Source: Candidatus Sumerlaeota bacterium (GTDB lineage: Bacteria; CG03; SLGR01). From it: a stretch of DNA of 11,920 nucleotides. Below, piece after piece: positions 131 through 11,920 of the stretch (the first letter of the stretch is position 1; each line of letters starts with the position of its first letter). The notes under the pieces are model-generated. The model was not told where the DNA came from. It saw only the letters and a list, made by a program, of their open reading frames with translations, and searched no databases. Made by a program: the position numbers and the translations under genes. The stretch lies in NCBI GenBank assembly GCA_007136585.1, contig SLGR01000012.1, forward strand, positions 1-11,920. Direction: 5' to 3'.

Positions 131-1183
131 ATGAGCAGAGAAAAATATGATATAAGTTTTTTCGAGAGGTACCTGACTCTCTGGGTCATACTGGGTATAG
201 GCGCGGGGATTACCCTGGGAGGAGTTTTCTCCCGGGCTGCGGATTTCCTGAGTTCCATTTCTATTGAGGGGGTCAACCTCCCCATAGCCGTGCTCTTATT
301 CGGGATGATGTACCCGATAATGGTGCAGATTGATTTCAGGGAGGTCAGGAACGCTGTCAGGGCTCCCGGGCCGGTCCTGCTTACCCTGGTAATCAACTGG
401 GGTGTAAAACCTTTCAGTATGTTATTCTTTGCCTGGCTTTTTATGAGGGTCATATTCGCGGGTCTCCTTCCTTATGATGCGGCGGGTGAGTACCTGGCGG
501 GTATGATACTCCTGGGTATAGCCCCCTGCACGGCGATGGTTCTGGTCTGGAGCTACCTTGCAAAAGGGTTCATGGGACTTACCCTGGTTCTGGTCGCGAT
601 CAACTCCCTGACAATGCTGGTCCTGTACGCCCCTCTGGGAAACTTCCTGCTGGGTGTTGCGGATATGCCCATACCGTTTATGACAATATTCTTCAGCATT
701 ATGCTTTACGTGGGGGTTTCCCTGGTTGCCGGTTATATTTCCCGCACCGCGCTGATACGGAAAAAGGGGATAGAGTGGTATGAATCCGTATTTCTGAAGA
801 ATATGGGCAGTATTTCAAAGGTATCCCTTCTGGCTACGCTTGTCTACCTCTTTATGCTCCAGGGCGGGGTTATTCTCGCCGCGCCCTTCGTGGTTGTGCT
901 TATAGCCGTACCGCTTACCGTACAGACACTGGTCATATTCAGCCTGGGATACTGGGCTGCCCGTAGACTGGGGTTTCGCTACGAAGAGGCCGCTCCTTCG
1001 GCTATGATAGGCGCCTCCAATCACTTTGAGGTGGCTATAGCTACCGCTGTAACGGTATTCGGGCTGGGTTCCGGGGCCGCGCTGGCTACAGTAGTCGGGG
1101 TCCTAATAGAGGTCCCGGTGATGCTCCTTCTTGTGAGGATCTGCCTGAAGACAAAAGAAAGGTTTAAGCGGGAGTCAGTGTAA
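131..1183 (+). CDS. arsB: ACR3-family arsenite efflux permease
   Basis: This 350-residue integral membrane protein has about ten hydrophobic segments and extrudes arsenite (possibly antimonite) across the inner membrane. The N-terminus FFERYLTLWVILGIGAG matches the ACR3 opening. GIAPCTAMVLVW (about 129-140) carries the conserved TM4 cysteine, C133. GASNHFEVAIATA (about 294-306) carries the TM9 glutamate, E300. Both residues are essential in characterised ACR3 proteins. Length is normal for the family. The ATG lies 1 nt after the upstream arsC-like stop, and AGGAAA inside that gene's end serves as ribosome binding site, so the two are co-transcribed and probably translationally coupled. The 3' end overlaps the convergent TIM-barrel gene by 9 nt. 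The symbol follows common usage; 'acr3' is equally valid. Confidence 0.95.
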   Translation: MSREKYDISFFERYLTLWVILGIGAGITLGGVFSRAADFLSSISIEGVNLPIAVLLFGMMYPIMVQIDFREVRNAVRAPGPVLLTLVINWGVKPFSMLFFAWLFMRVIFAGLLPYDAAGEYLAGMILLGIAPCTAMVLVWSYLAKGFMGLTLVLVAINSLTMLVLYAPLGNFLLGVADMPIPFMTIFFSIMLYVGVSLVAGYISRTALIRKKGIEWYESVFLKNMGSISKVSLLATLVYLFMLQGGVILAAPFVVVLIAVPLTVQTLVIFSLGYWAARRLGFRYEEAAPSAMIGASNHFEVAIATAVTVFGLGSGAALATVVGVLIEVPVMLLLVRICLKTKERFKRESV

Positions 1184-2101
1184 GCCGGGGTCCCGGTTCA
1201 GTATACCCCTGGATTTAAGAAACGGTATGCTGGCGGCCATCCGTGCGAAGCTGTGCCATCTGCCTATCTCGCATACTTTTATGATCCCTTCAGGAAGGTT
1301 CCGTGAGATAAGTTCCCAGTCAAGATCACCTTCTCCTGGCGGGAAGTGGTCTTTTAGCTCTTTCATATCGTGGAGGTGAACCCCTGATAATCGGTCTCTG
1401 AACCGTTCAAACCATTCCAGGTGGGGGGTAAAACCCTCTCTTGCCCTGAACTCCGCGTGCCCCGTATCATGCCAGTACGAGACCCTTTCGGGCGGGAACT
1501 TTTCCAGGAGCCGGGACATCTCGTCCGGGTCTGGTATCTCGTGAAAATTGGCCCTTGTTTCCAGGGCGATACTAATATCCTTTTTTTCGGCATACTCCGT
1601 TATCCGGGAAAGTGAGTCTTCCGCAAAGCGGAAACACCTGGCGGCCTGCTCTTCTCTTGTTCTGATCAGCTCTTTCCTGAGCGCACCCTGCCGGGGCGCT
1701 TCCTTTAAACCTTCCAGGCAGCTGCGCCGCAGCTGCTTCTCCAAGTCCGTATCAATATCATAATCCCCGGCGTGGAGAACTACTGTTTTCGTGTTAAGGG
1801 AAGCGGCGGTCTCAATTGTTTCCAGCACCCCGCGCACGGCTTCCTTCCTTTCCTGCCGGTCTTCGGAGCTCAGGGAGAGTTCGGAAAGCCGCCCCCCTCC
1901 GGAAAGAAAAGGGTTGGGTATGGGGGCATGAAGAGTTGAGATCTTAAACCCGCCGGATTCGAGAAGCTCATCAAGGAGTTCCCCGGTGAGAAGGTTGTTG
2001 AGGTCTATATGGGTGAACCCGGCAGCAGAGGCGGCTTCAAGAAAACCCCTCATACTATCGTAGGCCGGGCTGTACATTGTTGATAGGGCGATATCCGTCA
2101 T
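1175..2101 (-). CDS. Xylose isomerase-like TIM-barrel protein (sugar phosphate isomerase/epimerase, AP endonuclease 2 family)
   Basis: The 308-residue soluble protein belongs to the metal-dependent TIM-barrel superfamily of AP endonuclease IV and xylose isomerase. Likely metal-site motifs appear in the expected order: VLHAG (H110), ALETR (E181), YWHDTGH (D212, H215), GVHLHD (H242, H244), GEGDLDW (257-262) and KVCEIG (E278). Family members isomerise or epimerise sugars or act on related small molecules; the substrate here cannot be read from the sequence. An insertion at about 114-155 is charged and helix-rich. It is the last gene of the minus-strand transporter operon, 67 nt after the T-component/NTPase fusion, with AAGGTT just before the ATG and GGGAGGGAG further upstream. 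It may process an imported ligand or be a bystander. Its end overlaps the arsenite permease convergently. Confidence 0.8.
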   Translation of the reverse strand: MTDIALSTMYSPAYDSMRGFLEAASAAGFTHIDLNNLLTGELLDELLESGGFKISTLHAPIPNPFLSGGGRLSELSLSSEDRQERKEAVRGVLETIETAASLNTKTVVLHAGDYDIDTDLEKQLRRSCLEGLKEAPRQGALRKELIRTREEQAARCFRFAEDSLSRITEYAEKKDISIALETRANFHEIPDPDEMSRLLEKFPPERVSYWHDTGHAEFRAREGFTPHLEWFERFRDRLSGVHLHDMKELKDHFPPGEGDLDWELISRNLPEGIIKVCEIGRWHSFARMAASIPFLKSRGILNRDPGLH

Positions 2102-2168
2102 AACCTTATGGTAACAGTTATGCTCCCTCCCTGCCAGAGTCCGGCGGGGCCGGGTTAAAGGGCGTCTC

Positions 2169-3164
2169 TCAGGCCTTTACCCTGCGGACCCTGTGATTCG
2201 GGAAGAACTTGGCGGCTGTCTTCCTGGCGCAGCTCCTCCTTGATGTTATGTATATTATGGCCGCTTTGGATCGCGCAGCTTTCTCAATAAGCGGGGCGAA
2301 CCCGCCCCCGGAGAGCTCAAGGGGCCCGGATTCATCTATAAAGAGGGCCGATCCTTCCGGGATATCTTCAAAGAGGGAGCTGACCCAGTCGGCGGTTTCA
2401 CTGCTTAACCTGAACCGTCCGGCCCTCTCCCCTTTTCCGGGGGGCCACCCCGCGCGGGATAGGGGCCTGGTCTCACCGGAGGAAAGGTCCCTTGCGTCAA
2501 ACCCTGTCTTAATGGAGTTCTCATATACCCCTTCGGCGGCAAAACCCATAACCCTCCTTTTCTTTTTCTCCTCCCGCGCGTATCTCAGGAGGCGCCGGGT
2601 TTTTCCGCTGTCGGTCTCCCCCGTTATGAGAACCGTCTCCGGAAGGCTCATCTCCCGTACCTTGAGCCTCAGGCACATTTCCGAGGCGTTCCTCAGCGCG
2701 CACCTTACGGCTGTGGCCGGAAGGGCGGTAAGCGGTACCCTGCGGCGGGAGTTAAGGCTCAGTACCGCCCATCCCGAGGCAAGGTCGTTCCTCATAGAGG
2801 GGAAAAGGTTCATTGAGAGGGAAAGGGATCGGGAGATATCCCTGCCCAGAACGGGAAGGAGAAGATGGTTCAGTCGGGTAAAGTTCAGGTTGGATACGAT
2901 GGAGAGGAACCCGCCGTAAACCGCGATCACCCTCAGGAGTATGCTTAGGGCCATTGATATCCCTTCCCTTCCCGGAAGAATAAGCCCGGGGAGGGCGGCG
3001 AAAAGGATTATGATAAGGTAGAACCCGGCCTTTCGGAGCTCTGCGAACTCCCGGTAGGAAAGGAGGAGCCCTCCGGCCGCGGCGGCAGGAAGAAAATAGA
3101 TGCTCCCTGAGAACGAGGCGGCGATACAGAGAGCCCCGGCATATACACGGGCCTTACCGCTCAT
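2169..3164 (-). CDS. ECF transporter T-component-like membrane domain fused to a THEP1/DUF2478-like NTPase
   Basis: The 331-residue protein has two parts. Residues 1-175 hold about three hydrophobic segments (about 5-35, 47-63, 68-92), then a charged helical stretch with NSRRR (138-142) and LRLKVREM (165-172). This recalls the cytoplasmic coupling helices of EcfT/CbiQ proteins, though the domain is shorter than usual. Residues 176-331 form a P-loop NTPase: Walker A GETDSGKT (182-189), Walker B-like ALFIDESGPLEL (273-284), plus MGFAAEGVYE and TGFDARDL, which resemble the 'Gf.t.E....GF.i.dl' pattern of THEP1-type nucleoside triphosphatases. The ATG overlaps the S-component gene end by 11 nt and has a GGAGG ribosome site. 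The domain assignments come from motifs; the T-domain call relies partly on context. The NTPase may regulate transport or act on the ligand. Confidence 0.7.
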   Translation of the reverse strand: MSGKARVYAGALCIAASFSGSIYFLPAAAAGGLLLSYREFAELRKAGFYLIIILFAALPGLILPGREGISMALSILLRVIAVYGGFLSIVSNLNFTRLNHLLLPVLGRDISRSLSLSMNLFPSMRNDLASGWAVLSLNSRRRVPLTALPATAVRCALRNASEMCLRLKVREMSLPETVLITGETDSGKTRRLLRYAREEKKKRRVMGFAAEGVYENSIKTGFDARDLSSGETRPLSRAGWPPGKGERAGRFRLSSETADWVSSLFEDIPEGSALFIDESGPLELSGGGFAPLIEKAARSKAAIIYITSRRSCARKTAAKFFPNHRVRRVKA

Positions 3165-3693
3165 CCCGGAACCTCCAGGCCGCCAGACCCGCGAGGGCCC
3201 CTATGACCATATGAACCGCGCCGATAACGAGTACAGCCGCAAGGAGAGACCCTTCCAGCCCCGCCCTGCGGATAAACTCAAGGTAATCCCCTCCCAGGAG
3301 AACACCGGTCGCAACCGCCCGCGAGAAGGGGGGCCAGAGCATCGCCAGGGCCCCGGCCAGCATATACCCCGCCGGTTTCCTTCCGCCTGCGAAGATGCCT
3401 GTCTCCGCCAGGAAGGCCTCGGCCATTATGGATATATATATATTCGGCTTCGGAACCATACCCAGGGAAATAAATTTCACCGATGCGCATACAACCCCCA
3501 TTCCCAGGAGGGAACCCCTTGCCTTTCCCGGGATGTACTTGAGCCCGACAAGTATTATCCATACGCCTGCGGCTGCCAGGATACTCCCGGACATTGGAAT
3601 ATGGAGCAGGTGAAGCCAGGTTCCTATGAAGAGTTCGCTGAACCCCCAGAGCATCCCGAAGGCGGCTGTATACGCTATCTTCTTATGCGACAA
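3154..3693 (-). CDS. Small membrane protein, probable ECF transporter substrate-binding S component
   Basis: The 179-residue protein is highly hydrophobic, with about five to six membrane segments (about 7-30, 36-56, 60-80, 85-103, 109-131, 148-172). Size and topology fit an ECF S component, which binds substrate in the inner membrane and docks on the shared T subunit. I cannot match it to a named vitamin or metal family; WGFSELFIGTWLHLLHIP and WPPFSRAV are the most distinctive stretches. A TTG start at 3693-3691 is chosen because the reading frame then overlaps the ATPase gene by 11 nt and GGGGTG lies just upstream; no ATG near the N-terminus does better. It sits between the ATPase and T-component genes, which is the main evidence for the role. 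The substrate is unknown. Confidence 0.65.
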   Translation of the reverse strand: MSHKKIAYTAAFGMLWGFSELFIGTWLHLLHIPMSGSILAAAGVWIILVGLKYIPGKARGSLLGMGVVCASVKFISLGMVPKPNIYISIMAEAFLAETGIFAGGRKPAGYMLAGALAMLWPPFSRAVATGVLLGGDYLEFIRRAGLEGSLLAAVLVIGAVHMVIGALAGLAAWRFRDER

Positions 3694-4864
3694 GGTTCAC
3701 CCCGCAGGTTGCCAGTCTCTCAAGTATCCTTCTGTCGTGGGAGGAGATGAATACTATCCCTCCCCCGGAGCATTTCTCCCTTACCCCCTCAAAGAGTATC
3801 TCCATACTTGCGGCGTCAAGTCCGTAGGTGGGTTCATCCAGAACCATAACCGGGGCGGAGAAAGCCCCTGCTATGGCCAGGCGCTGTTTCTCTCCCGCCG
3901 AGAGGGTCTCTACCGGGCGGTCCATTCCGCCGGATAGGCCGAACCGGGTCAGAATATCCTCCGGTATCCCCCAGGCCCCGGCCTGTTCCCCCGCTGTGCG
4001 CGCCAGGAAAAACCTTCCCGGCTCCTGGGGGACATAGGATACTATCCCCCTGCGTTTCCTGATACCCCTCAACGGTCTCCCCATCCAGGAGCATTTTATA
4101 TCCGCTGCCGATGAGACCCCCGCAATAGAGGCGAGCAGGCTGGTCTTTCCGCTCCCGTTATCCCCGCTTACCCCGACGCAGGATCCGCCCGGAAGGCTCA
4201 ACTCCAGGTCGCCCCTCACCTCCAGGAGCCCGGTCCCTTCAGGTTCCGGCCTGCAGTAATCCGGAATCCTCTCAAGGTACCCGGCAGCTTCCTCCCGTGA
4301 CACCTCCGAGGGGGGGTCCCGGTCAAAGGAGAGGAACCTGTCGGCCGTATCCAGGAACTCGGGGGTATGGTCTATGATAAGTGCTGTTTTTCCGGTTTTT
4401 TTTAGAAGGGAGTCAAGGGCGCTGCGGTTCTCCTTGGAGAGGCAGACCCCGGGTTCGTCCAGGAGAAGTATATCTTTGGAGAAGGCCCCGGCCAGGGCGG
4501 TTATTGTTTTTTCCCCGTGGGAAAGTTCCGTACATCTTCTTTCGTATAGATCTCCGGCCCCGAGCATCTGAAGCTCCTTCATTCCCGCCTCTTCCTTTAC
4601 CCAGTTTCCCATTAGGTCCCAGGTGGGGTTCTGAGAGACCCACCCCGGCCTGGAGGATAGGAAGAGCTCTACCGAGCTCTCCCAGCCCTCGTCTTCGCAG
4701 GCGAGTCCCAGGAGCATCCTGAAGAATGAGCTCTTCCCGCTTCCCGAAGGGCCGGTAATCAGGAGAACCCCGCCTTCTTCAAGGGTGAGGTCCAGGGATT
4801 TGAATATGGAATTTCCCTTTACCGAGAGTCCCCCCCTGCGGAGCTTAAGAGCGGTCTTCTTCAT
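3683..4864 (-). CDS. Double-domain ECF-type ABC transporter ATPase
   Basis: The 393-residue cytoplasmic protein has two fused nucleotide-binding domains that power an ABC/ECF importer. NBD1 has Walker A GPSGSGKS (38-45), Q-loop Q78, signature LSHGE (114-118), Walker B ILLLDEP (132-138) and switch H166. NBD2 has Walker A GDNGSGKT (234-241), Q-loop Q280, signature LSAGE (321-325), Walker B VMVLDEP (339-345) and switch H376. All key residues are present, so both sites look active. The Walker B glutamate is followed by PG in NBD1 and PT in NBD2. The fused arrangement is typical of ECF systems whose two ATPases are encoded by one gene. It starts 11 nt after the receptor stop, with AAAGG directly against the ATG (poor spacing), so translation may depend on coupling to the receptor gene. 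Confidence 0.9.
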   Translation of the reverse strand: MKKTALKLRRGGLSVKGNSIFKSLDLTLEEGGVLLITGPSGSGKSSFFRMLLGLACEDEGWESSVELFLSSRPGWVSQNPTWDLMGNWVKEEAGMKELQMLGAGDLYERRCTELSHGEKTITALAGAFSKDILLLDEPGVCLSKENRSALDSLLKKTGKTALIIDHTPEFLDTADRFLSFDRDPPSEVSREEAAGYLERIPDYCRPEPEGTGLLEVRGDLELSLPGGSCVGVSGDNGSGKTSLLASIAGVSSAADIKCSWMGRPLRGIRKRRGIVSYVPQEPGRFFLARTAGEQAGAWGIPEDILTRFGLSGGMDRPVETLSAGEKQRLAIAGAFSAPVMVLDEPTYGLDAASMEILFEGVREKCSGGGIVFISSHDRRILERLATCGVNLVA

Positions 4865-4875
4865 CCTTTGCGTAT

Positions 4876-6684
4876 TCAGAACTCAGCCCGGGCCCCTACC
4901 GATACCCTGCGCCCCGGCATAGGTTCGCGGAAGTAGAGGGTGTAACTTTTATCGGTGATATTCTCAACCGACGCGTAAACTGAGGCGGCGGGTGTGACCC
5001 GGAGAGTGTAATCAGCCCCCAGGAGTATAAGGTCTTCCATACCTCCCTGCCGTCCGTCAAAGATGTATCTTCCGAACCTTCCGGTTGAGGCTGCCGAGAA
5101 GCGGTGCCTTCCCCCGGAGATGCTCAGGGAGGCTCTCAGGGTATGCCTTGTGGTATGGAAGGTGAGGTCTCCCGGGTCAAGGTAGGTATACCCCAGGAAG
5201 AGTTTAAGCGGACCGGAAATGAGGAGTTCCCCGGAGAACTCAACCCCCCGGTAGCGGGCCTCGGAATCAATATTCATCAGGGCTCTTCGGACCGGATTTC
5301 CTTCGTATGTAAAGGGAGTTTCGGGCTCCCGGGATACGATCATATCCTTCACCCTCGCGGTGAAAACATTTACAGAGGCCTCAACCCTCGGGTTTTCATA
5401 GGAGATACCCGCCTCAAGGTTTTCGGATCTCTCCGGTTTCAGATCCGGATCCCCGAAGAGGCGCAGGTTCCTTGAGAACCTCTCGGCAACTGTAGGGTAC
5501 CTGAACCCTGATCCGTACCCTGCCGAGAGTAAGACCCCTTTAAGGATCCTCCGGCGGAGAGTTATATGGGGGGTGAAGATGCCGTCAAAATCCTCCGTTT
5601 TCCTGTACCTGAGCCCTGCCGAGATATCCCAGTCTTCCAGGGGGAGGTGCCCCTGGATATAGGGAGAGTACCCGGATCGTGTTTCAGTGAGATCTCCCGA
5701 GAACTCTTCCCGCGAGAGTTCCGCCCCTGCGAAGAGGCGCCCGCCTCCTTCTCCTGTAATGTTCCACTCCGCTATTCCGCCCAGGGTGGCGGCATCTTCC
5801 TTCTCAAGGATGGAAGAGCTCTCCCTTTCGGTGTTGCAGTATGCTCTCAGCGATAGGCTGCTCCTGCGGTAATCCCTCCTCCATCCTGCTCTGAAGAGCC
5901 CCAGGAGATGCTCCCGTCCGGTCTCCTTCTCCAGGAACTCTCCCGTTCCGGGGCTGTAAAGGGGGATATCCCGTTCCGAGTAGAACCCCCGCGCCGTAAA
6001 TGAGAAGAGGTTTCTTTCGGCCAAAATCTCTGAGGATGCGGAAAGGTTTACCATAGTAGCGGGGTTGTTCTCGTGCCCCCGGGTATCATAGTATGATGAG
6101 GCAAAGCTGTACCCGGTATTGCCGCTTCTGCGGGAGAGGGATGCCGAAACCCTTCTGCTTCCGAAGCTCCCGCTCATAAGGTCGATCCTGGTTTCCTCCA
6201 GGTGCCCTGTGTCGGATATGACGTTTACGGCCCCCGCCAGGGAACCGGCCCCGAAAAGCGCGGATGCGGGGCCGCGGTAGATATCAATACGTTTTATGGT
6301 ATCGGGGTCAAGGCTTTCAAGAAGGAACCCCCTTCTCATCGTTGCGGCGGGAGCCCCGTCCAGGTAGAGGGCGACCTTGTTATTTGTCTGCCCCCCGGAG
6401 ATGCCTCTTACTGAGAGTCCCGAGATCCCCCCGGGGCCGGCGTAATGCACCTGCATCCCCAGTTTTTTATCCATAATGCTTCCGAGCTGGGGCATACCCG
6501 GGTGTACAAGTTCCCGGCGGGTGAGGGTTTCAACGGAAACCCCGGCACCGGCGGAGAGACGGGGGAACCTCTCTCCCCTTACCTCCACCACTCCCAGGTG
6601 GCCCAGTTCTGAAGAGTCGCCCCGAACCGGAGCGGCAAGAGAGACCGCGGATCCCAGGAGGATAATTTTAATAATGTGTTTCAT
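4876..6684 (-). CDS. TonB-dependent outer-membrane receptor (BtuB/CirA-like)
   Basis: The 602-residue protein has a signal peptide (about 1-22, MKHIIKIILLGSAVSLAAP), a likely TonB box LGVVEVRGE (30-38), a plug domain (about 45-157) with LSVRGISGG, VALYLDGAP, IDIYRGPASALFGAGS and GAVNVIS, then a beta-barrel rich in alternating aromatic strands. It ends in Phe, as outer-membrane barrels do. It would import a large or scarce ligand across the outer membrane using TonB energy. It is slightly short for the family (BtuB is about 600), which suggests compact extracellular loops. It heads the ECF-type operon, so outer- and inner-membrane steps are co-expressed. Upstream are a TTGACA -35 and a perfect inverted repeat ending 1 nt before the ATG. 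There is no Shine-Dalgarno and no riboswitch. A cobamide ligand is the family's usual alternative. Confidence 0.92.
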   Translation of the reverse strand: MKHIIKIILLGSAVSLAAPVRGDSSELGHLGVVEVRGERFPRLSAGAGVSVETLTRRELVHPGMPQLGSIMDKKLGMQVHYAGPGGISGLSVRGISGGQTNNKVALYLDGAPAATMRRGFLLESLDPDTIKRIDIYRGPASALFGAGSLAGAVNVISDTGHLEETRIDLMSGSFGSRRVSASLSRRSGNTGYSFASSYYDTRGHENNPATMVNLSASSEILAERNLFSFTARGFYSERDIPLYSPGTGEFLEKETGREHLLGLFRAGWRRDYRRSSLSLRAYCNTERESSSILEKEDAATLGGIAEWNITGEGGGRLFAGAELSREEFSGDLTETRSGYSPYIQGHLPLEDWDISAGLRYRKTEDFDGIFTPHITLRRRILKGVLLSAGYGSGFRYPTVAERFSRNLRLFGDPDLKPERSENLEAGISYENPRVEASVNVFTARVKDMIVSREPETPFTYEGNPVRRALMNIDSEARYRGVEFSGELLISGPLKLFLGYTYLDPGDLTFHTTRHTLRASLSISGGRHRFSAASTGRFGRYIFDGRQGGMEDLILLGADYTLRVTPAASVYASVENITDKSYTLYFREPMPGRRVSVGARAEF

Positions 6685-6720
6685 GGCGTTATACTTAGTA
6701 AAATATAACGCTTATGTCAA
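6685..6720 (-). promoter_or_regulatory. Promoter of the TonB-ECF operon, apparently leaderless
   Basis: On the minus strand TTGACA (6720-6715) is a perfect -35. A 17-nt spacer then leads to a weak -10, TAAGTA (6697-6692), and 7 nt later the receptor ATG starts at 6684. Transcription would therefore begin at or next to the A of the start codon. An in-frame TAA two codons into the promoter rules out an upstream start. No purine-rich ribosome site is present. Confidence 0.6.
6686..6711 (-). promoter_or_regulatory. Perfect inverted repeat resembling a ModE operator
   Basis: GCGTTATA (6686-6693) and TATAACGC (6704-6711) are exact reverse complements separated by 10 bp. Expressed as half-sites this is CGTTAT-N12-ATAACG. 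From memory, that is the half-site and spacing of the Escherichia coli modA operator bound by ModE-molybdate. The repeat covers the -10 region and reaches 1 nt from the receptor start codon, so a bound protein would block transcription. ModE assignment is inference; another dimeric regulator could use the site. Confidence 0.6.
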
Positions 6721-6826: not shown

Positions 6827-7399
6827 ATGAGTTTTAGAGAACTTGTGGAAAAAAGGTACAGCTGCCGCAGGTATGAGTCCGCGGGAGTGGAACGGGAGAA
6901 GATAAATGAGTGCGTTAAGGCGGCTCGGTCAGCCCCGTCGGCATGTAACGCCCAGCCCTGGAGGTTCCTTGTGATTGACGATCCCGGAGTCCTTGAGGGG
7001 GCCTGCGCCGCGGCTGTCTCGGGGGTTTACCGGATGAGCAGGTTCATTAAGGGGGCCCCGGTTCTTATAGCGGTCCTTGCGGATAAGGGGAGTTTCCTTT
7101 CAAAGATGGGTTCCCTGGTCAGGGATGCCGGGTTCTACCTTATAGATATAGGGATAGCCTGCGAGCACCTTGTTCTCCAGGCCTCCGAGCTGGGGCTTGG
7201 AACCTGTTACGTGGGGTGGTTTAACGAGAAGGCGCTTAAAAAAAACCTTGGTATCCCAAAGAAGTTAAGGGTCCCCCTGCTTATCTCAATGGGGTACCCC
7301 AGCGAAGAGTACCGCAAGAAGGATCCGATCCGCCGCCGGGCCGGTTCGGAGACCAGGAAAGACCTCAAAGAGATACTTTACTTCAATAGCCTCCGGTAA
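6827..7399 (+). CDS. Nitroreductase-family FMN-dependent oxidoreductase
   Basis: The 190-residue cytoplasmic flavoprotein uses FMN and NAD(P)H to reduce nitro compounds, quinones or similar acceptors; the physiological substrate is not evident. The N-terminal RYSCRRYES (10-18) and APSACNAQPWRF (37-47) are the phosphate- and isoalloxazine-contacting motifs, and ELGLGTCYVGWF (121-132) is the conserved C-terminal motif. RMSRFIKGAPVLIAV (69-83) is also typical. Length is normal for a short single-domain member. It lacks a clear BluB signature, so 5,6-dimethylbenzimidazole synthesis is not supported. AAGAGG with 8-nt spacing precedes the ATG. It is transcribed away from the TonB-ECF operon, sharing a 142-nt intergenic region that contains the ModE-like repeat, so shared regulation is possible but unproven. 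Confidence 0.9.
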   Translation: MSFRELVEKRYSCRRYESAGVEREKINECVKAARSAPSACNAQPWRFLVIDDPGVLEGACAAAVSGVYRMSRFIKGAPVLIAVLADKGSFLSKMGSLVRDAGFYLIDIGIACEHLVLQASELGLGTCYVGWFNEKALKKNLGIPKKLRVPLLISMGYPSEEYRKKDPIRRRAGSETRKDLKEILYFNSLR

Positions 7400-7679: not shown

Positions 7680-8903
7680 ATGAAGAAATTTAGAAATTTA
7701 CAGTGCAGGGAGTGCGGGAGGCGTTTCCCGGCGGAAGCGGTTTACGTATGTGAGTACTGCTTTGGCCCCCTGGAGGTTATCTATGATTACGGGAGTATAG
7801 ATATTTCCCGGGACTCAATCTTAGAGGGGCCGTTAAGCCTCTGGCGCTATAAGCCCCTGCTCCCGGTTCATACAGATTCTCCGGTTACCATCGGGGAAGG
7901 GCTGACCCCCCTCCTCAGGGCCGGCAATCTTGAGAAAGAACTTGGCCTCAAAGAACTTTATATAAAGAATGATTCGGTCAATCCCACTTTCTCTTTTAAG
8001 GACAGGGTGGTTACAGTGGCAGTTTCCAGGGCAAGGGAACTGGGGTTTGATACAGTGGCCTGCGCATCTACCGGGAACCTGGCCTGTTCTGTGGCCGCTT
8101 ACGGGAAAAAAGCAGGCCTGAAAACAGTAGTTTTTATCCCTGCGGATCTTGAGAAGGGAAAAGTCCTGGGGGCCGGCATATACCAGCCCCGCCTGGTAGG
8201 GGTAAGAGGCGATTACGATCAGGTAAACCGCCTCTGCGGAGAATTGGCGGGAACCTTCAAATGGGGGTTTGTGAATGTGAACCTGCGCCCCTATTATGCC
8301 GAGGGGTCAAAGACCCTGGGTTTTGAGGTGGCCGAACAGCTGGGCTTCAGGGCCCCCCGCCAGGTTGTAGTGCCTATGGCCTCGGGTTCTCTCCTTACCA
8401 AGATATACAAGGGGTTAAAGGAGTTTGAAGAGTTGGGAATCATAGAGGAAGCCGGGACCAGGTTTTTCGGCGCCCAGGCATCCGGGGCCGATCCCATAGC
8501 CGAAGCTGTCAGAAAGGATGAGGATATCATAAGGCCTGTAAAAGTAAAAACCATTGCCAAATCTCTGGCGATCGGAAACCCTGCAGACGGTTACTACGCC
8601 TGGGATGTCATAAAGAAGAGCGGCGGTTATGCGGCTTCTGTTACCGACGATGAGATTGTGGAAGGGATAAAACTTCTTGCCTCCACTGAAGGGGTATTTA
8701 CCGAGACCGCGGGGGGTGTGACGGTTGGAGTTCTGAAAAAACTGGTTGAGAACGGGAAGATAGACCCGGAGCTCTCGGTAGTTATATATATAACCGGCAA
8801 CGGGCTCAAGACCCAGGAAGCCGTGGAGAAAAGTGTTTCTAAAATAGAGGAGATAGAACCTTCTCTTAAATCGTTTAAGGAGAGCTGCCCCTGGGCAGTA
8901 TGA
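7680..8903 (+). CDS. Threonine synthase-like PLP enzyme with N-terminal zinc ribbon, in a sulfur-transfer operon
   Basis: The 407-residue protein is a fold-type II PLP enzyme. An N-terminal zinc ribbon (C9, C12, C24, C27) precedes IGEGLTPLL (71-79) and the PLP-lysine motif NPTFSFKDR, with K107; canonical threonine synthases usually have NPTGSFKDR. CASTGNLACSVAAYG and TETAGGVTVG are further family motifs. Threonine synthases convert O-phosphohomoserine to threonine. Here, however, the gene heads an operon with a sulfur carrier, its activating enzyme and a desulfurase, so a beta- or gamma-replacement making cysteine or homocysteine from a phosphorylated substrate and protein thiocarboxylate is an attractive alternative. 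AAAGGAAA precedes the ATG. The tail ends CPWAV. True threonine synthase function cannot be excluded. Confidence 0.85.
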   Translation: MKKFRNLQCRECGRRFPAEAVYVCEYCFGPLEVIYDYGSIDISRDSILEGPLSLWRYKPLLPVHTDSPVTIGEGLTPLLRAGNLEKELGLKELYIKNDSVNPTFSFKDRVVTVAVSRARELGFDTVACASTGNLACSVAAYGKKAGLKTVVFIPADLEKGKVLGAGIYQPRLVGVRGDYDQVNRLCGELAGTFKWGFVNVNLRPYYAEGSKTLGFEVAEQLGFRAPRQVVVPMASGSLLTKIYKGLKEFEELGIIEEAGTRFFGAQASGADPIAEAVRKDEDIIRPVKVKTIAKSLAIGNPADGYYAWDVIKKSGGYAASVTDDEIVEGIKLLASTEGVFTETAGGVTVGVLKKLVENGKIDPELSVVIYITGNGLKTQEAVEKSVSKIEEIEPSLKSFKESCPWAV

Positions 8904-8923
8904 TATAAGAAAGGAGGAAAGCA

Positions 8924-9196
8924 ATGATAAAAGTAAAAATACCCCAGCCCCTGCGAAACCTTACGGACGGGAAAGACGAGGTCTCTCTGGAAGGAAATGA
9001 GATCGGAGAGATTCTTCTGGAGCTGGAAAAGAAGTATCCGGGTATAAAGGAAAGGTTAAGGGATGAAGAAGGGAAGCTGAGGAGGTTTATAAACATATTC
9101 GTAAACGGAGATGATATAAGGCATCTTGAAGGTGAGGCTACGCCGGTAGAGGAAAGGGACGAGGTCTCTATCCTGCCGGCCATAGCGGGAGGCTGA
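8924..9196 (+). CDS. MoaD/ThiS/CysO-like sulfur carrier protein ending in Gly-Gly
   Basis: The 90-residue ubiquitin-fold protein ends VSILPAIAGG, the C-terminal di-glycine that E1-like enzymes adenylate and that then carries sulfur as a thiocarboxylate. The opening IKVKIPQPLRNLTDG, the helix around EILLELEKKYPGIKERL and NIFVNGDDIRHLEG follow the MoaD pattern. Ending exactly at GG means no proteolytic maturation is needed. A strong AAGGAGG lies 6 nt before the ATG, stronger than its neighbours, consistent with a carrier needed in excess. Position between a PLP synthase and a ThiF-like E1 points to amino-acid sulfur transfer, like CysO of Mycobacterium or HcyS of Wolinella, rather than molybdopterin synthesis. 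A MoaD role is the main alternative. Confidence 0.88.
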   Translation: MIKVKIPQPLRNLTDGKDEVSLEGNEIGEILLELEKKYPGIKERLRDEEGKLRRFINIFVNGDDIRHLEGEATPVEERDEVSILPAIAGG

Positions 9197-9197
9197 T

Positions 9198-9443
9198 ATG
9201 GCAAGAATAAAGAAACAGCTTGATCTGATATTTCCCGGGGAGCAGGTAAGAGAACCGGTTATATACAGGGTAAGCAGGGAGTATGATATCGTATTCAATA
9301 TCCGCCGCGCAAAGGTTACTGAAACCACCGGGGAACTGGCCCTGGAGTTCGAAGGAGAGGAGAGCGAGGTGGAGAAGGCGGTAGAGTACCTGGCGGGAAA
9401 AGGGGTAAAGGTTCAGCCCCTGCCCCATGATATAGTGGAGTAA
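9198..9443 (+). CDS. NIL-domain protein
   Basis: This 81-residue soluble protein is a single NIL-type domain, the small ferredoxin-like fold also seen at the end of MetN-type methionine ABC transporter ATPases. RIKKQLDLIFPGEQVREPVIYRV opens it, IVFNIRRAKVTETTGELALEFEGEESEVEKAV carries the typical 'n...a.v....G.l.v.l.G....v..a' pattern, and GVKVQPL closes it. It contains no cysteine, so it does not bind a metal cluster. Free-standing NIL proteins recur with sulfur amino-acid genes and are thought to bind methionine-like ligands or assist sulfur transfer; the exact role here is unknown. The ATG is 1 nt after the carrier-gene stop, with GGGAGG (9187-9192) as ribosome site. It is followed closely by the ThiF-like gene. 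Confidence 0.8.
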   Translation: MARIKKQLDLIFPGEQVREPVIYRVSREYDIVFNIRRAKVTETTGELALEFEGEESEVEKAVEYLAGKGVKVQPLPHDIVE

Positions 9444-9451
9444 GTACAATA
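9437..9451 (+). promoter_or_regulatory. Shine-Dalgarno GGAG and ATA start of the ThiF-like gene
   Basis: GGAG (9437-9440) overlaps the last codons of the NIL gene and lies 8 nt before ATA (9449-9451). This is the only initiator position giving the full conserved N-terminus. AUA is a very rare start codon, so the site may keep expression low. Confidence 0.55.
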
Positions 9452-10468
9452 GATACAGACAGGTATATAAGACAGGAGCTCTTTAAGCCCGTAGGTAAAG
9501 AGGGGCAGCGAAAGCTCAGGGGTTCAAAAGCCGTCATAGTGGGGTGCGGGGCCCTGGGCTCAAGGGTCAGCGAGGAGCTTGCGCGTTCCGGGTGCGGGTT
9601 TCTAAGAATAATAGACAGGGATTTCATAGAGCTCTCAAACCTCCAGCGCCAGGTCCTTTTTACGGAGAAGGATGTCAGGGATAACCTTCCAAAGGCCTTT
9701 GCCGCGCGCAGACACCTGGAGGAGATAAACTCCGGGGTTACTATAGAGGATATAGTGGATGACCTGAATTACTCCACGGCCGATAAATACCTCTCCGGGG
9801 CGGATATAATACTTGACGGCACTGATAACCTGGAAGTGCGGATGCTGATAAACGATTATGCTCAGAAGAACCGTATCCCCTATATTTACGGGGCTGCGGT
9901 CTCATCATACGGAAACTCAATGAATATTATACCCGGCAGAACCCCCTGTCTAAGGTGCCTATTCCCTCTCCTTCCCCCCCCGGGGGAGGTGGATACCTGC
10001 GATACGGCCGGGGTCATATCCCCCATCCCCGGGGTCATAGCCTGTATAGAGGCTGCCGAGGCCATAAAGCTCCTCTCCGGGAACCCCGGAGAGTTAAGAG
10101 AATCCCTTCTTTTCATAGACCTGTGGTCCGGCAGGTTTAATACCTACAGCGTAAAACCCGAACCGGGGTGTGAATGCTGCGCCGCGGGAAACTACGAGTA
10201 TCTTACCCCGGAAAAGGGGAAGAAGATAACAACCCTCTGCGGCAGGAACGCCGTTCAGATAACCCCGGCCTCGGGAGAAAACGTTAACTTTGAAGACCTG
10301 CGTGAAAAGCTTCATCCGATAGCAGAGGTTGAGGGGAATAAGTTCATACTGAAGTTTACCCTGGACGGGTGCGGTATAAGCGTATTTAAGAACGGAAGAG
10401 CCATAATCCAGGGAACCTCAGATGTAAACAGGGCGAGGAGCCTTTACTCAAGGTATATAGGAGAGTGA
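9449..10468 (+). CDS. ThiF/MoeB/HesA-like E1 adenylyltransferase, probable AUA start codon
   Basis: The protein adenylates the C-terminal Gly-Gly of the sulfur carrier using ATP. Read from ATA at 9449 it has 339 residues. The N-terminal DRYIRQELFKPVGKEGQRKL is the standard family opening, followed by the nucleotide-binding GCGALG (32-37), NLQRQ, DGTDN (about 122-126), zinc cysteines CLRC (167/170) and CECC (241-244), and a likely catalytic cysteine in DTCDTAG (C184). A C-terminal extension (about 280-339) resembles the extra domain of related E1s. No ATG, GTG or TTG lies in frame between the stop at 9428 and a GTG at 9539, which is too late: it falls inside the nucleotide-binding loop. GGAG (9437-9440) sits 8 nt before ATA. 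A start-codon sequencing error is the alternative. Confidence 0.88.
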   Translation: MDTDRYIRQELFKPVGKEGQRKLRGSKAVIVGCGALGSRVSEELARSGCGFLRIIDRDFIELSNLQRQVLFTEKDVRDNLPKAFAARRHLEEINSGVTIEDIVDDLNYSTADKYLSGADIILDGTDNLEVRMLINDYAQKNRIPYIYGAAVSSYGNSMNIIPGRTPCLRCLFPLLPPPGEVDTCDTAGVISPIPGVIACIEAAEAIKLLSGNPGELRESLLFIDLWSGRFNTYSVKPEPGCECCAAGNYEYLTPEKGKKITTLCGRNAVQITPASGENVNFEDLREKLHPIAEVEGNKFILKFTLDGCGISVFKNGRAIIQGTSDVNRARSLYSRYIGE

Positions 10469-11622
10469 GCACAGAAAATAAGATAATATATTTTGATAAC
10501 GCGGCCACCTCCTGGCCAAAGCCGGAACCTGTTTATGAGTCTCTCGGAAGTTTTCTCAGGGAAAAGGGGGCCAACCCCGGCCGGAGCGGGCATAGAATGG
10601 CCCAGGCGGCGGAGCGGGCGATCGACGGGACAAGAAACCTGGTCTCTTCCTTTTTAGGGGTCGGGAGCCCGGAGAGGATAATATTTACTCTTAACTGCAC
10701 CGACGCCCTTAATATCGCCATACACGGAACAGTAAAAAAAAGTTCCCATGTTATAACCACCTCGCTGGAACATAACTCTGTAACCAGGGTCCTGAATGAG
10801 CTGAGAGAAAGAAAATCGGTTGAGATTACCATAATTGAGCCCTCGGAAGAAGGGTATATAGATCCGGATAATATAAGAAAGAGTATCAGGAAAAACACCT
10901 CGCTTATAGCTATAAATCACGGTTCAAATGTCACGGGAGCCCTCCAGGATGCCGGGGAGACAGCTCTTATCTCCCGCAAGAAGGGTATCCCCTTTCTCCT
11001 GGATGCTGCGCAGTCGGCAGGGGCGGCTCCTCTTGACCTTGGCGCCCTTGGAGTATCCCTTTGCGCCTTACCCGGTCATAAAGGGCTGCTCGGCCCTACA
11101 GGGACGGGGATTCTTTATGTTTCAGAAGATCTGGAAATTTCTTCTTTCAGGCAGGGGGGGACGGGGACGGATTCCGCCTCCCCCCGTCACCCTGATAAGT
11201 ACCCCTTTCATCTTGAGGCCGGCACCCCCAACACCTCCGGCATAGCCGCCCTGGGTGAGGGGATAAGGTACGTTGCGGATAATTTCGATTCTATCATAAA
11301 GAGAGAAAAGGAGCTGCTCGGCTTCCTCCTTGAGGAACTGGGAAAGACCGGGGGCATAAGAGTATACGGGCCCCGGAGTTCAGAAAAGAGGGTGGGGACG
11401 ATTTCCCTTAACGCCGAGGGATGGTCTCCCGATGACCTGGGGGCGGTGCTGGATGAAAACTTTAATATAGCCGTAAGGACCGGGCTTCACTGCGCCCCGG
11501 GCGCGCACAGGGGCCTGGGCACATTCCCCGAAGGGACCGTGAGGGTCTCCTGCGGCCCGTTTAACACGGAAGAAGAGGCGGAGAAGCTTCTCTCGGCCCT
11601 GAGGGAAGCGGTAAAACTGTAA
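10465..11622 (+). CDS. Cysteine desulfurase-family aminotransferase class V
   Basis: The 385-residue PLP enzyme would take sulfur from cysteine as a persulfide, releasing alanine, and could load the operon's carrier protein. Key residues are in place: H103 (SLEHNSV), D180 and Q183 (LLDAAQSAG), PLP lysine K206 (LPGHKGLLGP), RQGGTGTDS (229-237) and the active-site cysteine C343 in RTGLHCAPGAH. The RTGLHCAP and GGTGTDS motifs point to the group-II-like 'cysteine desulfurase family' near SufS/CsdA rather than NifS/IscS. The GTG start overlaps the ThiF-like stop by 4 nt (GTGA) and GGAG is only 1 nt away, so translational coupling is likely. Selenocysteine lyase activity or another sulfur-amino-acid reaction is possible. 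Confidence 0.9.
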   Translation: MSTENKIIYFDNAATSWPKPEPVYESLGSFLREKGANPGRSGHRMAQAAERAIDGTRNLVSSFLGVGSPERIIFTLNCTDALNIAIHGTVKKSSHVITTSLEHNSVTRVLNELRERKSVEITIIEPSEEGYIDPDNIRKSIRKNTSLIAINHGSNVTGALQDAGETALISRKKGIPFLLDAAQSAGAAPLDLGALGVSLCALPGHKGLLGPTGTGILYVSEDLEISSFRQGGTGTDSASPRHPDKYPFHLEAGTPNTSGIAALGEGIRYVADNFDSIIKREKELLGFLLEELGKTGGIRVYGPRSSEKRVGTISLNAEGWSPDDLGAVLDENFNIAVRTGLHCAPGAHRGLGTFPEGTVRVSCGPFNTEEEAEKLLSALREAVKL

Positions 11623-11658
11623 GGGCTGTATATTAAAACCCGCCGCGCTGTTTTGGGG

Positions 11659-11711
11659 GCAATATATGATGAATTTTATTAAATTACTTAATTTTTAAAT
11701 ATATTGCTTTT
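11659..11711 (+). terminator. AT-rich inverted repeat, possible terminator of the sulfur operon
   Basis: GCAATATAT (11659-11667) and ATATATTGC (11699-11707) are exact reverse complements. Inside, AAATTA (11681-11686) pairs with TAATTT (11689-11694). TTTTAT follows the stem at once. The AT-rich stem makes a factor-independent terminator weak but plausible. Confidence 0.4.
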
Positions 11712-11756
11712 ATAAAACTTGACAAAATAAATAATATTTATTAAAATAAAATATTA
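11712..11756 (+). promoter_or_regulatory. Cysteine synthase promoter, twin of the sulfur-operon promoter
   Basis: TTGACA (11719-11724), a 17-nt spacer and TAAAAT (11742-11747) form a strong promoter. ATAAAACTTGACAAAA (11712-11727) is identical to 7577-7592. The spacer holds AATAAAT-AAT-ATTTATT (11726-11742), and TAATATTT (11732-11739) pairs with AAATATTA (11749-11756) over the -10. Shared sequence and repeats imply a common regulator for both promoters. Confidence 0.75.
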
Positions 11757-11786
11757 TAAGGTTGTAGGATTTATCAGGAGGAAAAA

Positions 11787-11920
11787 ATGAGCAAAGTGTT
11801 TAAGGACATTACGGCGGCCGTGGGAAGGACCCCGGTAGTGGGGCTTGAAAAGATTTCAAAGGGTCTTCCGGGAAGGATCCTGGGAAAACTTGAGTCTTTC
11901 AACCCCCTGGGCAGCGTCAA
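11787..11920 (+). CDS. cysK: Cysteine synthase (O-acetylserine sulfhydrylase), N-terminal part
   Basis: The first 44 codons lie in the window and the frame runs off the edge. The visible protein has FKDITAAVGRTPVVGLEKIS followed by ILGKLESFNPLGSVK, the opening of CysK-type fold-II PLP enzymes, where NPLGSVKDR holds the PLP lysine (K44 is the last visible residue). Such enzymes make cysteine from O-acetylserine and sulfide. A textbook AGGAGG (11776-11781) lies 5 nt before the ATG. The gene has its own promoter, closely related to that of the upstream sulfur operon. A CysM-like or O-phosphoserine-using variant cannot be distinguished from this fragment. Confidence 0.88.
   Translation, partial: MSKVFKDITAAVGRTPVVGLEKISKGLPGRILGKLESFNPLGSV

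Follow-up and report, generated by a model that had tools for sequence, protein, structure and literature searches.

The described systems closest to the locus analyzed here are the ECF transporters (the BioMNY, RibU, and YkoE/ThiT families), with which it shares the S fold, a double-NBD ATPase encoded next to S, and a T-like membrane protein. It differs from them in that its S protein belongs to no Pfam family above cut-off, its T-like domain shows no detectable similarity to EcfT in Pfam or PDB searches, and it possesses a fused THEP1 NTPase and a Mo/W genomic context. The TonB-ECF systems for cobamide uptake also combine a receptor and an ECF module in one operon, and the receptor profile is nearest to BtuB, but here there is a ModE operator in place of a cobalamin riboswitch and the neighbors of the S family are Mo/W enzyme and Moco genes. 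With the ModABC, WtpABC, and TupABC transporters that are under ModE, the locus has in common a ModE-type operator over the promoter; unlike them, its operon includes neither a periplasmic binding protein nor a classical permease, and its S family is enriched in genomes without Moco synthesis. The NTPase shares the THEP1 fold (Z 15.1) and a conserved P-loop with the THEP1 NTPases (1ye8, 2i3b), but is fused to a transporter domain, and its next structural neighbors are thymidine kinases (Z 9–10). Genes for MobB or MobA-like proteins adjoin S in other genomes.

The window (the whole stretch of DNA analyzed, 11,920 bases) is a single contig in the 1.88 Mb, 88% complete assembly of an uncultured Elusimicrobiota bacterium. 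The initial annotation had proposed that a minus-strand set of five genes forms a TonB-ECF uptake operon under Mo/W control, and the set was confirmed, with Pfam support, from position 6684 down to 1175 with junctions of 67 nt or less (from the receptor to the TIM barrel, an 11 nt gap, an 11 nt overlap, a second 11 nt overlap, and a 67 nt gap). The first gene (4876–6684) encodes a TonB-dependent receptor of 602 residues with Pfam Plug and barrel domains, the candidate outer-membrane step, whose nearest solved structure by profile match is BtuB. It is followed by a double-NBD ABC ATPase of 393 residues (3683–4864), in which two ABC_tran stretches provide an A and A′ NBD pair within a single protein, making it a candidate ECF A-A′ subunit; this gene also adjoins S in the genomes G003 and G270.

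The third gene (3154–3693, minus strand) encodes a protein of 179 residues that we regard as the S-component, a predicted substrate-binding membrane protein, based on its predicted fold. It had no Pfam match above cut-off. However, the AlphaFold model (pLDDT 93.7) has the six-helix fold of ECF S-components, and its best four structural matches were all proteins of that kind (Z 14.6 to 8.2), including YkoE (5edl, Z 14.6), BioY (8.9), and RibU (8.4), compared with 7.2 for unrelated entries. The fourth gene (2169–3164, minus strand) encodes a fusion of an N-terminal T-like membrane domain (approximately residues 1–168) with a C-terminal THEP1-family NTPase (approximately residues 175–331; NTPase_1 in Pfam). 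The T-like domain gave no useful match in Pfam or PDB searches. It is weakly homologous to the middle domain in the S-T-NTPase fusions described below and sits beside S and the ABC ATPase. Its part of the predicted model is mostly of low confidence (pLDDT <60), and structure searches with it did not recover EcfT, an absence that does not exclude EcfT. The ECF reading of the initial annotation is supported for S by its predicted fold, whereas the T label is putative and draws on gene context and weak homology. The last gene (1175–2101, minus strand) encodes a TIM-barrel enzyme of 308 residues (AP_endonuc_2 in Pfam) that weakly resembles the cobamide phosphodiesterase CbiR, scoring 41 bits and not reaching the NCBIfam cut-off of 105; a scan of 20 loci revealed no homolog of it near S.

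Downstream of the operon, an ACR3 arsenite efflux pump gene (131–1183, plus strand; 361 bits against a cut-off of 283) is convergent with the TIM-barrel gene and overlaps its end. Upstream, a nitroreductase gene (6827–7399, plus strand), whose product is weakly BluB-like (67 bits against 150), is divergent from the receptor gene, and the intergenic region that they share contains the ModE operator. The remainder of the window (7680–11920, plus strand) encodes threonine-synthase-like, MoaD/ThiS-like, NIL-domain, and MoeB/ThiF-like proteins, a cysteine desulfurase, and the start of a cysteine-synthase-like protein, and looks like a cluster for sulfur-carrier cysteine assembly rather than Moco synthesis. 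Molybdopterin synthesis by its MoaD/MoeB-like genes (8924–10468) was considered and dropped, as the genome has no MoaE and the cluster has the appearance of cysteine synthesis.

The perfect repeat noted in the initial annotation lies over the receptor promoter as a 26-bp palindrome, GCGTTATA-N10-TATAACGC (6686–6711), with a CGTTATA core at 6687–6710 and its end 2 nt from the receptor ATG. None of 200 dinucleotide shuffles of the sequence reproduced it, and the host assembly contains a perfect copy only here. A candidate −35 box read from the sequence, TTGACA (6715–6720, minus strand), abuts the operator directly upstream, and the same arrangement of TTGAC followed by the operator is found in L071 and L078. 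The published ModE consensus is CGNTATATA-N6-TATATANCG, and that given for E. coli ModE is ATCGNTATATA-N6-TATATANCGAT (PMC545781). CGTTATA-N10-TATAACG agrees with the ModE consensus in the outer half-sites and in spacing, and the window operator is identical to the E. coli modA promoter site at 13 of 14 positions. A search for modE in the host genome, as the initial annotation had advised, identified a homolog at G000:C212:16621. This protein of 128 residues consists of the HTH only, with 31% identity to the N-terminus of E. coli ModE and with the GSI, SY-A, and GGxGGGG motifs, and scores 73 bits, which is below the TIGR00637 cut-off of 98.5. Molybdate-binding Mop domains were not found on it, and other single-domain ModE proteins likewise have no known sensor (PMC545781). 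Host-genome sites with two or three mismatches to the operator were not accepted as members of a regulon because chance gives similar numbers (66 forward, 51 in the reversed control).

Near-identical operators occur in other genomes at L071:13027, L078:7340, and L083:6404, as well as before a ModE operon in G009. In G120 (L071) the operator is directly upstream of an operon of ModE, receptor, and the S homolog S2; in G125 (L078) it is directly upstream of an operon of receptor, a fused S-T-NTPase, and ModE; in G270 (L083) it is in the intergenic region preceding a cluster with an ABC-S-T cassette; and in G009 (L031), another Elusimicrobiota genome, it precedes an operon of ModE, moeA-like, and mogA-like genes. 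ModE is thus in one operon with receptor and S homologs in three other genomes, G120, G125, and G011. The last of these is from the order of the host, and in it the ModE gene overlaps a receptor gene (its product 36% identical to the window receptor), followed by S2 and the NTPase. These findings uphold the link to Mo/W that had been read from the repeat and lend good support to the prediction that the host operon is under ModE-type control. Two features of orthologous operons, lack of the repeat and presence of cobalamin riboswitches, had been named in the initial annotation as speaking against the proposed Mo/W-regulated uptake. The first occurs in G003, where the orthologous ABC-S-T-NTPase genes have neither the operator nor ModE; the second was not seen, as neither the window nor any of 27 other loci showed a cobalamin riboswitch. 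Moco riboswitches were also absent near S genes.

A scan of contigs with two S sequences had the G003 locus as its sole match, and a plasmid tblastn search with S, S2, and the receptor had none. A profile built from S and S2 identified relatives in 29 of the 386 genomes searched, and these span many families. A sharper S profile, applied to AOR-positive genomes that had been S-negative, added G325, which appears to be a true member, and G055, a doubtful, partial match. Glutamate 20 (window numbering) is invariant in all 30 aligned S-family sequences. The family also keeps G13, W16-G17, and K73, the W-G stretch and K73 being present in 24 to 26 of the 30, and half of the sequences have a cysteine at the position equivalent to window residue 81, which the topology suggests faces outward. 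The host and G003 proteins are 54% identical for S and 39–41% identical for the fusion protein. In G003, a truncated THEP1 ORF (L020:9242–9535) ends in FSVKNRVIFSDLNLG, which is almost identical to the beginning of the ABC gene downstream and may reflect recombination or an assembly error. The receptors of G120 (L071:10685–12667) and G003 (L020:10259–12181) are from different phyla and match at E 5e-143; that the G003 receptor is closer to the G120 receptor than to the window receptor suggests transfer between phyla.

Fusions of S are found in several loci: to a T-like domain and NTPase in L078 and L081, and to a T-like domain alone in L080 and L100. In L082 (7584–10364) a single ORF of 926 residues has S in frame before the plug and barrel of a TonB receptor, and its product would span both membranes, although it is possible that a start was missed or that there is a frame error. 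Because they are fused in other genomes, the S protein, T-like domain, NTPase, and receptor are suggested to work together.

The neighborhoods of S homologs point to Mo/W enzymes. Tungsten-type aldehyde:ferredoxin oxidoreductases (AOR) adjoin S in five genomes (G084, G225, G311, G335, and G354) and xanthine-dehydrogenase-type (XDH) enzymes in three (G151, G189, and G305), other neighbors being MocA, MobA-like, MobB, XdhC, MoeB/MoaD-like, and DUF364 genes. At eight places S and an AOR or XDH gene were no more than ~5 kb apart, compared with 0.5 expected; none of 400,000 simulations reached eight. Putative heavy-metal chelation proteins of DUF364/DUF4213 repeatedly adjoin S (L076:9334–10092, L081:7523–8326, and L085:8813–9550), hinting that this family may also have a Mo/W-cofactor role.

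To what extent S follows Moco synthesis was determined in the 386 genomes, of which 227 have AOR or XDH and 159 have neither; many of the assemblies are incomplete and related genomes are not independent. Among the enzyme-positive genomes, S was present in 20 of 54 without MoaC, compared with 7 of 173 with MoaC (P = 3.7e-9). The contrast persisted at the level of families (P ≤ 6e-6, with family counts assumed for the S-negative, MoaC-positive cell). Only 3 of the 159 genomes without AOR or XDH had S, and as those lacking both enzyme and MoaC carried S in just 2 of 113 cases (P = 1e-9 against the 20 of 54), the pattern is not one of general gene loss. Wherever MoaC was absent from the S-positive genomes tested MoaA was absent also, MoaE was not found in any S-positive, MoaC-negative genome, and MoeA was not found in 16 of the 20 such genomes that carry an enzyme, including the host, G003, and G011, all three of which have XDH-family genes. 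The host carries an intact XDH operon on C196, which encodes Moco-binding domains, subunits for 2Fe-2S and FAD, and the catalytic KGLGE motif, yet none of moaA, moaC, moaE, and moeA was detected in the 88% complete assembly; a gap in the assembly could account for the lack of a moa cluster in the host, though in the host alone. As 34 enzyme-positive, MoaC-negative genomes also have no detectable S, S is not the sole answer and other routes or errors must exist, and seven S-positive, enzyme-positive genomes synthesize their own cofactor.

That S occurs mostly where Moco enzymes are used but the Moco pathway is missing points to the cofactor itself as the cargo. The reading that we favor, with no better than even confidence, is that the operon salvages a molybdopterin-type cofactor by a TonB-ECF route, the cargo being either the metallated Mo/W cofactor or molybdopterin, the former being favored because MoeA is absent in most carriers. 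We infer the direction of transport and its energy source as follows: the cofactor would pass the outer membrane through the receptor and be bound in the periplasm by the S-component, and its import would be driven by the T-like domain and double-NBD ATPase. The imported form would then be processed or trapped by the THEP1 NTPase of the fusion protein, perhaps together with the TIM barrel. The THEP1 domain may act as a salvage kinase or hydrolase; the TIM barrel, with its weak likeness to the phosphodiesterase CbiR, could, speculatively, remove the nucleotide from dinucleotide forms. MocA, MobA-like proteins, or MobB encoded beside S in other genomes would re-add nucleotides. With enough Mo, W, or cofactor available, single-domain ModE would act through the palindrome to repress the promoter.

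The cargo originally proposed was Mo or W itself, imported through TonB and ECF components as an oxyanion or bound to a metallophore. Catecholate molybdophores are known, ModE operators normally control Mo/W uptake, and the S cassette of G270 has a WtpA-like binding protein beside it, along with permeases, a setting expected of a metal transporter. Such a system should track MoaC or be neutral to it, yet S shows strong enrichment in genomes that do not make Moco, and, as most S-positive, MoaC-negative genomes with an enzyme are without even the MoeA insertase, they would have no known use for the bare metal. We now consider this cargo unlikely. Import of cobamides, as by other TonB-ECF pairs, with the TIM barrel remodeling them in the manner of CbiR, is improbable. 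We retain it because of the receptor's profile match to BtuB and the weak CbiR match, beside which the adjoining nitroreductase is weakly BluB-like, but neither the lack of cobalamin riboswitches in the window and the 27 other loci nor consensus operators with ModE in the same operon are in keeping with it, the neighbors are Mo/W enzymes and Moco nucleotidyltransferases, and no homolog of the TIM barrel was detected near S in the scanned loci. Import of a molybdenum-enzyme substrate such as a purine or heteroaromatic acid is very improbable: several S genes are inside XDH-type clusters, but the family also adjoins AOR, whose substrates are aldehydes, and stands under ModE operators, and enrichment in genomes that lack Moco genes is not expected of an importer of substrates.

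Against cofactor salvage itself are the presence of the operon in G003 without ModE or the operator, the likeness of two components to the cobamide proteins BtuB and CbiR, and the instability of the free cofactor. Approximately 300 prokaryotes have molybdoproteins and no complete cofactor pathway, the "orphan molybdoprotein" cases of Peng and colleagues, for which the proposed answers are unknown synthesis genes or metal-free enzymes (PMC6147048). Bacterial Moco is taken up by nematodes (PMC12479013, PMC9793310) and uptake of molybdopterin has received a brief mention for another outer-membrane family (PMC12282271), and in a literature search limited to open papers we found no described bacterial Moco importer. 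As a tentative generalization, plausible to us but short of an even chance, a widespread and undescribed S family may import finished Mo/W cofactor for molybdoenzymes in organisms without their own synthesis, the inner-membrane unit in some lineages being a single S-T-THEP1 polypeptide with no adjacent ABC ATPase gene. The S protein is a direct target for testing cofactor import. If salvage is true, the importer would be the missing step in, and a third answer for, the orphan-molybdoprotein bacteria, and microbial communities would share Moco as a common good in the way that they share cobamides.
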